From Bifidobacterium sp. ESL0732 (GTDB lineage: Bacteria > Actinomycetota > Actinomycetes > Actinomycetales > Bifidobacteriaceae), in contig NZ_CP113920.1 in the NCBI RefSeq assembly GCF_029395535.1, positions 806,001 to 870,000 of the forward strand: DNA of 64,000 bases, written 5' to 3'. The position numbers and the translations under genes are program-made. Within the stretch, counting starts at the first letter, position 1. The number at the start of each line of letters is the position of its first letter. Under the pieces are notes generated by a model that had not been told where the DNA came from, did not search any database, and saw only the letters and a list, made by a program, of their open reading frames with translations. Below are positions 28,595 through 32,883 of this stretch, piece after piece.

Positions 28595-28647
28595 CTGCCA
28601 CAAGTTTCAAAGCGGTAACAAAGAACCTGCTCTGAAACTTGTGGCAG
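28595..28647. terminator. Perfect 15-bp stem between convergent genes
   Basis: CTGCCACAAGTTTCA (28595-28609) pairs exactly with 28633-28647 around a 23-base loop, between the RluA gene (+) and the MFS gene (-). The T-tract is poor on both sides. Probably a bidirectional stop. Confidence 0.6.
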
Positions 28648-28681: not shown

Positions 28682-29896
28682 TCACTCATAGATATAGTGA
28701 GATTCGATTCTCTTCTGGAACTGGAAAACAATAAGTACAATGACCATGACCACGGAAATAGCAAGCATGCACCAGAAGGTTCCGATCAGTGGGTCGAGTC
28801 CGAAGGCCTCGGAAATCAGCTTGAAGAACCAAGTGGAAATGGTGAAGCCAAGGCTGGTGATTGCGGAGAACAGGCCCATCACGAACGGATAGTGCTTCTT
28901 GTCGGCGACGTTGGAAAGCATGAAGGGCATCCTGGTCATGATGATGGCGCTTCCCGAACCGATGAGGAACGCCGCGAGGCAGACCAATGGGAAGAAACGG
29001 GTGAAGATGAAGAGGATTGCGCCAATGCCCATCAAGCTGAATGCGAATGGGATGGTGAAGTTCTTGAGCAGCTTCTGGATTCGATTGATTAGCAGACCAA
29101 TAACCACAGACGAGCCCGTGTTGAACATGAGAGCCATACCCGCCGCATCTGAGGCACCAAGGTGATAGGTGCTGACGTAGATTGAAAGTTTGTTATACAT
29201 TACCGCTACCAGGAAGATGCTCAGGAAGCCCATGATCTCGCAAACGACGATTGCCGGGATGCTCTGTTTGGCCCCTTCTTTGAGATGTGTTTCTTCTACA
29301 TCATCCTCCACATCATCACTGACTGAATCGCTTGGGACGAAGATGACAACGAAAATAAGGGCGATGAGCGCTATGCCATAGAGCCAGTAGTTGTGCACCC
29401 ATCCCGACATCGCCAGCAAGCCTCCGAGATACATGATGATCATCGAAGAGCCATCCTGCATTGCGACGATTTTGCCCATCAGTCCGGAAAGCTGTTCTCC
29501 GTGGAAGAAGTGGGAAGACAAGCTGGGCAATATTGTCGTGATGATGCCCGTTCCAAAACCGGCGACGATAGCGCAGATCAGTAGTTGATTGACGCTGCCA
29601 TGCAGGAATATCGGAGTAAGGCCACCGACGGCAACGAACAGGCAGCCCGTTATTCCTACGGTCTTGAAGGAAAGTTTTTCCATCAGTTTGCCGAAAATGA
29701 TGGCAGAAACCATGGCCGCGGAAGCGCCGATGGAAACAACCGATTCGACTTTCGATGGGTCGTCGTGGGGAAAACTTCTTTGGATTTCTGCTACAGATGG
29801 AGAAATGATCGAATCGAACCTGGAAATGATGGCAAGGAACAATATGCCAATCAAAATACCTGCTGTTTTTTTATTCAGAATTGACTTCTTTGCCAT
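28682..29896 (-). CDS. MFS transporter in the RidA / C-S lyase cluster
   Basis: 404 residues with about twelve hydrophobic helices in two sets of six separated by a charged central loop (DSVSDDVEDDVEETHLKEGAKQ). The first MFS loop shows GKLMEKLSFKTVGITGC, a degenerate form of the G-x3-D/E-R-x-G motif. Direction and substrate cannot be read. Its start lies two bases after the ridA stop, with AAAGGAG inside the end of ridA, so the two are translated from one mRNA. With the divergent C-S lyase and the nearby regulator this suggests import or export of an amino acid or a sulfur-containing conjugate (inference). Confidence 0.85.
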   Translation of the reverse strand: MAKKSILNKKTAGILIGILFLAIISRFDSIISPSVAEIQRSFPHDDPSKVESVVSIGASAAMVSAIIFGKLMEKLSFKTVGITGCLFVAVGGLTPIFLHGSVNQLLICAIVAGFGTGIITTILPSLSSHFFHGEQLSGLMGKIVAMQDGSSMIIMYLGGLLAMSGWVHNYWLYGIALIALIFVVIFVPSDSVSDDVEDDVEETHLKEGAKQSIPAIVVCEIMGFLSIFLVAVMYNKLSIYVSTYHLGASDAAGMALMFNTGSSVVIGLLINRIQKLLKNFTIPFAFSLMGIGAILFIFTRFFPLVCLAAFLIGSGSAIIMTRMPFMLSNVADKKHYPFVMGLFSAITSLGFTISTWFFKLISEAFGLDPLIGTFWCMLAISVVMVIVLIVFQFQKRIESHYIYE

Positions 29897-29898
29897 GA

Positions 29899-30252
29899 TT
29901 ATGACTCCTTTTGTGCAATGGCTTCTATTTCTATGTTCGCGCCTTGGGCCAACCCTGCCACTTGGAAAGCACTACGGGCTGGATAAGGAGTGGCGAAGAA
30001 TTCGGAATAAACCTTGTTGAATCGAGCGAAATCGGCGAAATCTCTGAGGAATACCGTTGTTTTGATAATGTCTGACCGCGTGCAACCGAAATCGGCAAGA
30101 GTCGCTTCCAAATTGTTCAGCGCGTTGGAGGTCTGATCCTCGATACTCGCCGGATATTCTCCGGTTGCTGGATCCAGTGGAAGCTGTCCCGAAATATAGT
30201 ACGTGTCGCCTGCCTTGCGCCATGGTGAATACGGAGTTGTTTGCGATGTCAT
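29899..30252 (-). CDS. ridA: RidA family enamine/imine deaminase
   Basis: 117 residues from the ATG at 30252, preceded by GAAAGG; the longer open frame upstream runs through the AT-rich promoter and is not coding. RidA hydrolyses reactive enamines such as 2-aminoacrylate, released by PLP enzymes, to keto acid and ammonia. Family blocks are YYISGQLPLDPATGE, QTSNALNNLEATLADFG, KTTVFLRDFADFARFN and PARSAFQVAGLAQGANIEIEAIA, with the active-site Arg in ARSAF and the Glu in EIEA. It heads a two-gene operon with the MFS gene and is divergent from the PatB-type lyase whose product it could detoxify. Confidence 0.92.
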   Translation of the reverse strand: MTSQTTPYSPWRKAGDTYYISGQLPLDPATGEYPASIEDQTSNALNNLEATLADFGCTRSDIIKTTVFLRDFADFARFNKVYSEFFATPYPARSAFQVAGLAQGANIEIEAIAQKES

Positions 30253-30423
30253 ATGATATGCCTTTCGTTGTATGGGCAAGATGTTTTTAGTTCCCGACAA
30301 AGCATCTTTGCCACTGTCCTGTTCTACTTTGAGGACAATAAAATAATAATAACTTATTATTAAAAAAACGCAAAATCGGCATTTTATCGCTAAAAAACAA
30401 GTATATTTCGATTTTTTGCAGAA

Positions 30424-30456
30424 AAAATTATCAGTCTGATAATTTTGTGTTATACT
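30424..30456 (+). promoter_or_regulatory. Operator palindrome and promoter of the C-S lyase gene
   Basis: AAAATTATCA (30424-30433) and TGATAATTTT (30437-30446) form a perfect palindrome with a 3-base centre. A -10 TATACT follows at 30451-30456, so the palindrome covers the -35 zone. The region between ridA and the lyase (30253-30494) is very AT-rich. The palindrome is a candidate binding site for the YheO/DauR-type regulator encoded at 31851, and could control both directions. Confidence 0.6.
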
Positions 30457-30494
30457 GAAACTGCAATGAAGCATCAACTGAAAGGATATGAGTT

Positions 30495-31667
30495 ATGAAC
30501 TCTCTCGATACGGTAATCGATCGAAAGAATACCTATAGCATCAAATGGGATGGTATAGGTCTCGACTACAAGAATCTTGACCTTACTCCTATGTCCATCG
30601 CGGACATGGATTTCAAGGTTCCTCAGGAAGTCATCGATGCTGTTGTAGCTCAGGCAAAAGTCGGTATTTATGGATATGCGATGCCTGCTGAAAGCTATAC
30701 CAGTGTGATCACGGACTGGCTTAAGGAACGCAATGATTGGCAATTGCAGGAAGAGAATGTTGGGTTTGTCATTCGTGTGGTTGATGCGATCTCCATGGCC
30801 ATTCGTTCGATGTCTGAGGAGGGCGACGCGATCATCGTTTTCACCCCGCTTTACGGTTTCTTCGAATCGGCGATCGTTGGTGCGCGTCGCAAGTTGGTTG
30901 CCAATCGTATCAATTACACTGAGCGTGGCTATGAAGTCGATTTTGACGAGTTTGAGCGGCAGATCGAGGCCGAACATGTTCGTATGTTCGTTCTGTGCAA
31001 TCCTCACAACCCGACGGGAAGGGTGTGGACGCGAGAGGAATTGACGCGTATGGTCGAAATCTGTAAAGCCCACGATGTCACTATCATCTCTGACGATATT
31101 CATAGCGATTTGATTATGCCCGGGTATCATTACACCCCGATTGCGAAGATTGCCAAGGAAATGGACTTTGACAAGGTCATCACCATGAAATCCGCCTCAA
31201 AGACCTTCAACGTAGCGGGGTTGCAGCTCGGCTATTATATTTCCGAGAATCCTGACATCATGAAGCATATGCAGGATGAGAAGGATTACACGACCTATCC
31301 TGATCTTCCCAATAACTTTGTGATTGCCGCGATATCCGCCGCCTATAAGCATGGTGTTCCGTGGCTTGAGAATGTCCTGCAGTATATCGAGGGCAATTAT
31401 CAGATGGAGAAGAAGCTCATCGAAGAGAAGTTCCCGAAGGCGCATCTTGCGCAATTGGAAGGCACCTATCTGACATGGCTGGATGTCAGCTATCTGGGAA
31501 TCGACGAGAAGACTTTGATGGATAGGCTTGACAAGTGCGGCATCGGCGCTGAAACCACGTCAAGTTTCGGCATCAAAGAGGGACTGTTTATTCGCATGAA
31601 CATCGCCTGTCCGAAAGCCACCATGCAAAAGGGGCTTGACGCGTTGGAAAAGGCGTTGTCGATGTAA
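30495..31667 (+). CDS. PatB/MalY-type PLP-dependent C-S lyase (cystathionine beta-lyase family)
   Basis: 390 residues of fold-type I PLP enzyme. The PLP lysine is in MKSASKTFNVAG, the SASKTFN signature typical of MalY/PatB. Other marks are LTPMSIADMDFKVP at the N-terminus, CNPHNPTGRVW and IISDDIHSDLI (PLP-pyridine Asp). MalY/PatB enzymes cleave cystathionine, cysteine or S-conjugates to pyruvate, ammonia and a thiol through 2-aminoacrylate. ATG at 30495 follows AAAGGATATGAGTT. It is divergent from ridA and MFS and followed by a strong terminator and the convergent regulator gene. An aminotransferase activity cannot be excluded. Confidence 0.9.
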   Translation: MNSLDTVIDRKNTYSIKWDGIGLDYKNLDLTPMSIADMDFKVPQEVIDAVVAQAKVGIYGYAMPAESYTSVITDWLKERNDWQLQEENVGFVIRVVDAISMAIRSMSEEGDAIIVFTPLYGFFESAIVGARRKLVANRINYTERGYEVDFDEFERQIEAEHVRMFVLCNPHNPTGRVWTREELTRMVEICKAHDVTIISDDIHSDLIMPGYHYTPIAKIAKEMDFDKVITMKSASKTFNVAGLQLGYYISENPDIMKHMQDEKDYTTYPDLPNNFVIAAISAAYKHGVPWLENVLQYIEGNYQMEKKLIEEKFPKAHLAQLEGTYLTWLDVSYLGIDEKTLMDRLDKCGIGAETTSSFGIKEGLFIRMNIACPKATMQKGLDALEKALSM

Positions 31668-31756
31668 CTGGCAATTGCAAGGATTGCCACAAAGCCAACA
31701 AATGCCCGTCCAACGTGATTTTAAGTTCCTTCTTAATGTCGTGTTTTAAGGCACCG

Positions 31757-31830
31757 GCTTCCACGAAGGTTTACGCAAGATTCTAAAGAAATTTTCTGGC
31801 GTAAATCCTCGTGGAAGCTTTACTTTTTGC
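31757..31830 (+). terminator. Intrinsic terminator after the C-S lyase gene
   Basis: Arms 31757-31776 and 31799-31818 pair over 20 positions with two differences, followed by TTTACTTTTTGC. Confidence 0.85.
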
Positions 31831-31850
31831 AGGCAGTTGTAAAGCCACCT

Positions 31851-32501
31851 CTAGTTGACGTTTTGCAGATACCGATACAACGTCGAGACGGAACATCCCA
31901 ATTCCGGCGCCACCACGTTGACCGCGCTTTTCATGAGGAAAACGCCGTTGTTCTTGAGATCACGAACAATATTGATTCGTTCGCTGGAAGTCATGCGGGT
32001 AGGGGAAACACCATATTGAGCCACGGTATCTCTGGTTATTCTGCGGATGGTTTCGCTCCAGTCACCTTGCAGGTTTTCGCCATGTCCAATAGTGGGGAGC
32101 ATATCATGCAGATTTGAATCGGGGACCAATTTGGAAAGCAGGGAGAGAGTGTCTTTAAATCCTGTGATGTCCACGTTGATGCAGAGCAGGCCTATGAGTT
32201 CACCTTTGCTGTTTTTTATGAATAACGTCGATGACCTGAACTCTTGGTTGTGTGCTGCTCCTTTATAGCCTGACACGTAGTCTCTGACGTTGGATTCGCC
32301 GGTTTGGATCAGTTTCAATGCCTGATCGGTAACTCCGTCACCAACTTTTCTGCCGGACAGATTACCGTTCCTGATGAAGATGATTGATTTTTTGGGATCA
32401 TTAACATCATGTACCAGAACTTCGGCTATTTCGCCAAGGGCATCTGCGATAAAATTCGCTAGCGGGAAGGTGTCTTCCAAATGTTCAAATGATAATGCCA
32501 T
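31851..32501 (-). CDS. YheO/DauR-type transcriptional regulator (PAS-like + HTH)
   Basis: 216 residues. The N-terminal half matches the YheO PAS-like sensor: LANFIADALGEIAEVLVHDV, KSIIFIRNGNLSGRKVGD, FRSSTLFIKNSKGELIGLLCIN. The C-terminal 60 residues are a helix-turn-helix with RMTSSERINIVRDLKNNGVF and VNVVAPELGCSVSTLYRYLQ. In Pseudomonas, DauR of this family represses D-arginine catabolism and responds to the amino acid. By analogy this protein may sense the substrate handled by the RidA/lyase/MFS genes. It is convergent with the lyase gene. ATG at 32501 follows a GGAAAATAC site. Confidence 0.85.
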   Translation of the reverse strand: MALSFEHLEDTFPLANFIADALGEIAEVLVHDVNDPKKSIIFIRNGNLSGRKVGDGVTDQALKLIQTGESNVRDYVSGYKGAAHNQEFRSSTLFIKNSKGELIGLLCINVDITGFKDTLSLLSKLVPDSNLHDMLPTIGHGENLQGDWSETIRRITRDTVAQYGVSPTRMTSSERINIVRDLKNNGVFLMKSAVNVVAPELGCSVSTLYRYLQNVN

Positions 32502-32883
32502 ATGTATTTTCCTTGTTTTCCGAGATGATGCTCATAATACTCCACTCTATACGTGAGAAAAAAATATCTGTATTTTTAAAATTCAGATAGATAACAGTGA
32601 GTTGTAATAATTGGTTGAACAAGACATGGAATGAAGGAGATTGAAACCAGAACGCTACTAAGAATTTCAAAAACGGTGGTTTCTTGCAGCCTTCTGATTT
32701 AAGACCAAGGCAGTTAAGCATATTTCTGGCCTGCATGTTCCTTACGCTCGAGGCTTATGTCGAAGCATTTGCTATGCGGGTTTGCTGGTTTTGGAAATAA
32801 TTTGCGTCTTTATCATGGGCGGCTTCGAAAGGTAAGGATAGACTTGTCGTTAAATAAAGTGATGGATTGATGACAGGGGCGCA
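32502..32883. other. 380-bp region upstream of regulator and orphan binding-protein genes
   Basis: No gene is supported. TATCTG (about 32565) and CAGATA (about 32584) form a spaced inverted repeat close to the regulator start. An 83-codon frame on the minus strand at 32485-32736 overlaps the regulator start and has no recognisable domain. The last 100 bases probably carry the promoter of the binding-protein gene. Confidence 0.4.

Follow-up and report, generated by a model that had tools for sequence, protein, structure and literature searches.

INTRODUCTION

In Yersinia pestis, the low-GC island y3555-y3550, which is thought to be horizontally acquired, brings together a PLP enzyme, an NhaC carrier, a PAS/HTH regulator and a proven RidA, Y3551 (PMC7221256). 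According to Niehaus (2015, PMC4433059), RidA genes also occur in clusters with PLP enzymes that form 2-aminoacrylate, cystathionine beta-lyase among them. Among C-S lyases of the PatB family, the malodour lyases of the ShPatB type have unique hydrophobic pocket residues, Tyr25 and Phe274 (PMC7385124).

Here we analysed a stretch of 64,000 nucleotides (the window, in which all coordinates below are counted) from the chromosome of Bifidobacterium sp. ESL0732. It carries a cassette of four genes, encoding RidA, an MFS carrier, a PatB-family C-S lyase and a YheO-type regulator. The host genome is a Bifidobacterium of 2.39 Mb, whose strain name places it by inference in a bee-gut lineage; its nearest relative, G091, matches Bifidobacterium sp. 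ESL0784.

As in the Y. pestis island, a PLP enzyme, a secondary carrier, a PAS/HTH regulator and RidA are found together in a low-GC region. However, the carrier belongs to MFS_1 and not to NhaC, and the Y. pestis island has an extra SRPBCC protein and a second Rid and is read as one polycistronic transcript, in contrast to the divergent pair here. The PLP enzyme of that island has been treated as an aromatic aminotransferase, and we set it beside the cassette lyase by description. The cassette also resembles the clusters of Niehaus (2015) in having RidA beside a C-S lyase, which is read as 2-aminoacrylate removal; but those clusters, in the available text of PMC4433059, are described without a YheO-type regulator or a carrier, whereas all four kinds are present together here. 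The four functional kinds also lie within ~4 kb in clusters of Paenibacillus (CP045296) and Priestia (CP127875), although with NhaC in place of MFS, another gene order and lyases 36-37% identical to the cassette lyase. The lyase shares with Bacillus subtilis PatB (6qp3) and Staphylococcus hominis ShPatB (6qp1, PMC7385124) the fold-type I C-S lyase family and the catalytic residues, but it is altered at eight near-invariant positions, and the PatB studies dealt with single enzymes and not with a gene set.

That RidA stands beside enzymes forming 2-aminoacrylate, cystathionine beta-lyase included, was as a general idea already in print in 2015 (PMC4433059). In the open-licence literature, the YheO-RidA-PatB combination was not found apart from the Y. 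pestis study, and no paper was found there to state an association of YheO-type regulators with RidA and 2-aminoacrylate formers. The MFS carrier, the divergent layout, the host and the divergent lyase are what distinguish the cassette from the Y. pestis island.

RESULTS

Gene order and setting of the cassette

The MFS carrier gene (28682-29896, minus strand; 404 aa, PF07690 MFS_1 with 104.5 bits) is followed in the window by ridA (29899-30252, minus strand; 117 aa, of the enamine/imine deaminase family by PF01042 and TIGR00004), the PatB-family PLP-dependent C-S lyase gene (30495-31667, plus strand; 390 aa, TIGR04350) and the YheO-type transcriptional regulator gene (31851-32501, minus strand; 216 aa, a PAS_6 sensor with HTH_22). 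MFS lies downstream of ridA with a gap of 2 bases (29897-29898), and a GGAG Shine-Dalgarno-like motif is located inside the 3' end of ridA, ahead of MFS. The regulator gene is convergent with the lyase gene and stands outside the divergent pair. Two inverted repeats look terminator-like from their sequence. One of them, at 28595..28647 with 15-bp perfect arms (28595-28609 and 28633-28647), forms the left edge of the cassette between the pseudouridine synthase and MFS genes, and the other (31757..31818) lies between the convergent lyase and regulator genes. Open reading frames agree with the four genes, order, coordinates and 2-base ridA-MFS coupling described in the initial annotation.

Divergent promoter region

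The same annotation had proposed that ridA-MFS and the divergent lyase have in common an AT-rich region with a palindrome, and this is borne out: the region between them (30253..30494) has 242 bp and 69% A+T, is conserved with G091 and holds a perfect 23-bp palindrome, a candidate operator, at 30424..30446 (AAAATTATCAGTCTGATAATTTT; arms AAAATTATCAG-T-CTGATAATTTT). A second perfect palindrome, TAATAATAA-C-TTATTATTA at 30344..30362, is the same in G091. Palindrome arms of at least 11 bp arose in 3 of 3000 dinucleotide shuffles of the 242-bp region. The centre of the 23-bp palindrome is ATCATCATGAT in G091 and ATCAGTCTGAT here, a symmetric double change, and because both flanking bases changed symmetrically the palindrome in G091 is still perfect. 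Such a change would fit a dyad-symmetric binding site at 30424-30446.

A promoter-like TTATCA-17-TATACT, with TG before the -10, is located at 30428..30456 on the plus strand, with its -35 inside the 23-bp palindrome. The number of promoter-like matches in the divergent region is not above chance and position alone is suggestive; the overlap of the best-placed lyase promoter match with the palindrome suggests repression. A search for the core of the palindrome at the remaining PAS_6 loci fetched gave no match, so the link between regulator and operator stays putative. Upstream of the regulator, the window has ~240 bp of AT-rich sequence (32560-32800) that is missing from the cassette copy of G091.

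RidA, regulator and carrier

RidA scores 123 bits against TIGR00004 (cut-off 106.25) and keeps the PARS arginine (R93) and the EIEAIA motif in an alignment with 2dyy; the active-site arginine of the PARS motif is R105 in the literature (PMC7221256). This ridA is the only PF01042 gene of the genome, and the cassette regulator, with PF08348 PAS_6 (115.6 bits) and then PF13309 HTH_22 (68.1 bits), is its only PAS_6 gene. In the aligned set outside G091, the closest regulator is that of a Paenibacillus PatB-NhaC-RidA cluster (40%), and identity to a plasmid copy annotated dauR is 29%. Assignment to DauR proper was rejected, since the cassette has no D-arginine dehydrogenase-like gene that would link it to D-arginine catabolism. 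The best NCBIfam match of MFS is a multidrug-type superfamily model, far below its cut-off. A structure prediction of MFS from a 4-sequence alignment gave a mean pLDDT of 40 and was discarded, and PDB sequence searches with the regulator and with MFS gave no match.

The lyase and its altered positions

The lyase matches TIGR04350, PatB C-S lyase, over residues 5-388 with 371.5 bits (cut-off 340), and its nearest solved structures are 4dgt and B. subtilis PatB 6qp3. Alignment with relatives shows that the Schiff-base lysine K236, D200, N172, Y61, Y120 and R367 are kept; of these, the PLP lysine K236, the PLP-N1 aspartate D200, the stacking tyrosine Y120 and the carboxylate arginine R367 fall in invariant columns. 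Eight near-invariant or strongly restricted PatB positions differ (S34, R94, D97, L119, G121, D201, T355 and E362). At the positions compared, the G091 lyase has the same R94, D201 and T355, and D at 362. By homology, R94 (G94R) lies in a turn close to the cofactor phosphate and T355 (G355T) near the carboxylate arginine. Position 121 and the R94-D97 turn would, by homology, also be near the PLP site, which makes a changed pocket likely. With eight positions altered and the catalytic residues kept, specificity probably differs from that of ordinary PatB, and the alterations may have shifted the reaction or the substrate.

In the tree, the cassette lyase does not group with the lyases of NhaC-linked modules. 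A single clade of module lyases is weakly rejected (AU p 0.04), in a tree made uncertain by long branches. Hence the module lyases are probably not one clade, and repeated assembly of the same functions would be the simplest reading of the tree. A second lyase, resident and MalY-like, is encoded in the genome (G000:C1:2331955-2333043). It shares 29% identity with the cassette lyase and 75-82% with the lyases of G002 and G076, and its counterpart in G091, at 309 bits, falls short of the PatB cut-off. Two full-length Cys_Met_Meta_PP enzymes are also encoded.

Island character and distribution in the genus

The four cassette genes have GC contents of 0.47-0.50 and the adjacent glmS, pseudouridine synthase, solute-binding-protein and coaX genes of 0.55-0.585; for the flanks as a whole the value is about 0.58. 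The distance from the pseudouridine synthase gene to the solute-binding-protein gene is ~180-210 bp in G086, G092 and G093, so these genomes have nothing at the cassette site. All four genes occupy it in G091. In G025 (L044, 6621-7838), the orthologous MFS gene stands alone at this site, without RidA, lyase and regulator, so MFS can serve without them; the site was examined for remnants of the three genes and none was convincing. The cassette is thus an island, as it is low in GC relative to its flanks and its site is empty or MFS-only in related genomes, and judged by its sequence it was acquired horizontally. The searches pointed to no donor: above 38% identity, the scan of genome contigs with the lyase returned only G091, and in 398 Bacillota genomes nothing exceeded 41% for the lyase and nothing matched MFS at E 1e-40 or better.

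The complete cassette is found in 2 of 112 Bifidobacterium genomes, and MFS orthologues among them are confined to G091 (95%), G025 (79%) and G002 (66%). In G002, MFS adjoins a MalY-type C-S lyase which is different from the cassette lyase. The proposal that the pathway would be new to the genus is thus supported as far as rarity goes, but related modules do occur. G083 has a regulator-PatB-NhaC cluster, and in G089 (L062, 5679-10635) RidA and a PAS_6 regulator lie with an ABC importer of the amino-acid type and a class V-like PLP enzyme that has no NCBIfam match; this is probably a parallel module built on another PLP enzyme. Most other Bifidobacterium PAS_6 genes accompany D-serine or L-serine dehydratase and a transporter. 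Clusters of a GntP-type permease, D-serine ammonia-lyase and PAS_6 were seen at L063, L064, L065, L067 and L070, in several Bifidobacterium genomes.

RidA matches are found in ~80 other Bifidobacterium genomes, and most clade-mates (G082-G088, G090, G092 and G093) have none at E 1e-6. From this distribution, the genus-type RidA appears to have been lost in most of the clade around the host genome.

Co-occurrence outside the genus

The cluster of Paenibacillus cellulositrophicus CP045296 has the order PAS_6-PatB-NhaC-RidA, and that of Priestia megaterium CP127875 PAS_6 | RidA-NhaC-PatB. A cluster of the same kind, with PAS_6, RidA, NhaC and PatB, is found in the Bacillota genome G141, and G235 has PAS_6, an NhaC-type carrier, a D-cysteine-desulfhydrase-family enzyme, PatB and RidA. 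This last set is part of a longer stretch (L103, 2442-10000), where it is preceded by PAS_6-threonine dehydratase-RidA; PAS_6 regulators and RidA genes are each present twice in the stretch, the two RidA genes being almost identical. A Serratia plasmid carries an NhaC-PatB pair. The four genes had been read in the initial annotation as a coherent module, a reading that depended on co-occurrence elsewhere. Such co-occurrence is found in other genomes and supports this reading: the same four kinds, with NhaC for MFS, recur in Paenibacillus, Priestia and G141, and G235 has them together with one further enzyme.

RidA lies within ~5 kb of 29 of the 59 PAS_6 loci from 53 Bacillota genomes, against 0.36 expected from RidA counts and genome sizes. 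At 31 of the 59 loci there is a threonine/serine-dehydratase-type, iron-sulphur serine-dehydratase-type, D-serine-dehydratase or tyrosine-phenol-lyase-type enzyme, and at 2 a strong PatB. These counts are approximate, since the loci are phylogenetically non-independent and some iron-sulphur class matches may be cysteine-desulfidase-like proteins. PAS_6 neighbours also include D-serine dehydratase, L-serine dehydratase, threonine dehydratase, diaminopropionate ammonia-lyase and tyrosine phenol-lyase. At L080 (a Phytobacter plasmid), L099, L101, L105 and L138, PAS_6 adjoins enzymes of the tyrosine phenol-lyase/tryptophanase type. Transporters in several parallel PAS_6 clusters are of the GntP/D-serine permease type, an aromatic amino-acid transporter, BrnQ and an amino-acid-type ABC importer. 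With the lyase as the starting point, such linkage is seldom seen and most Bacillota PatB lyases are solitary: among the 20 nearest Bacillota PatB relatives, none has PAS_6 within 5 kb and one has a RidA-like gene.

DISCUSSION

With its observed gene content, coupling, conserved palindrome, island character and recurrence of the gene set in other genomes, the cassette seems to us rather likely to be a horizontally acquired, locally regulated module for import, beta-elimination and imine detoxification. On what is known of the families, MFS would probably import an L-cysteine-type amino acid; candidates are cysteine S-conjugates, S-alkylcysteines and compounds resembling cystathionine or cystine. 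The PatB-family lyase would then catalyse PLP-dependent beta-elimination of the C-S bond, giving thiol and 2-aminoacrylate, and RidA would turn 2-aminoacrylate/2-iminopropionate into pyruvate and ammonia before other PLP enzymes are damaged. The YheO-type regulator would sense the substrate or the product and, if it binds the palindrome over the lyase -35, act on the divergent promoter, most likely by derepression. Four observations weigh against this module: the eight altered positions of the lyase, the solitary MFS of G025, the solitary state of most Bacillota PatB lyases and the lack of the palindrome at the other PAS_6 loci fetched.

The direction of transport is where another reading is nearest at hand. 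MFS might export the toxic thiol released by the lyase, or an unrelated compound, with no import of substrate, and the cassette would then be a module for thiol or drug efflux. The multidrug-type superfamily model is the best match of MFS, though far below its cut-off, and G025 retains MFS alone, as a self-sufficient exporter might be retained. But by analogy with the uptake-type transporters of several parallel PAS_6 clusters, import would be favoured, and we regard efflux as unlikely. The chemistry of the PLP enzyme may also be changed, for example to that of an aminotransferase, with RidA handling the resulting imines. The eight altered positions, including G94R and G355T, are in line with this, and so is the parallel Y. 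pestis island, whose PLP enzyme was placed in the metabolism of aromatic amino acids (PMC7221256); a full-length TIGR04350 match above the curated cut-off, together with the kept catalytic residues of PatB lyases, makes it quite unlikely.

PatB/MalY enzymes often cleave cystathionine, and the two Cys_Met_Meta_PP enzymes of the genome could make or use it. The cassette lyase could hence serve methionine biosynthesis as a further cystathionine beta-lyase and stand beside RidA by accident. However, the resident MalY-like lyase, with its close relatives in G002 and G076, is already present, and the cassette is restricted to 2 of 112 genomes and has its own carrier and regulator, so we find this explanation improbable. 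Chance gathering of unrelated genes at an insertion hot spot would account for the varying contents of the site, which is empty or has MFS only or all four genes. But the same families co-cluster recurrently in another phylum and RidA is strongly enriched at PAS_6 loci, 29 of 59 against 0.36 expected; chance assembly is therefore rejected as extremely improbable.

The import, elimination and detoxification module could be one instance of something wider. YheO-type PAS_6 regulators may broadly be dedicated sensors of 2-aminoacrylate-forming catabolism, responding to the enamine or to an amino-acid precursor, with the cassette as a re-specialised example whose lyase active site was rebuilt to accept a new cysteine conjugate of plant or host origin. 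We offer this combination tentatively and consider it somewhat doubtful.

Clade-mates of the host are mostly without detectable RidA, which makes the host a clean setting in which to ask if a C-S lyase depends on an imine deaminase of its own. With the acquired cassette, a bee-gut-type bifidobacterium would gain a specific trait concerning sulphur amino acids. Moreover, the YheO-type PAS_6 family, poorly characterised and widespread, gains a concrete, testable role alongside RidA and enzymes that form 2-aminoacrylate.
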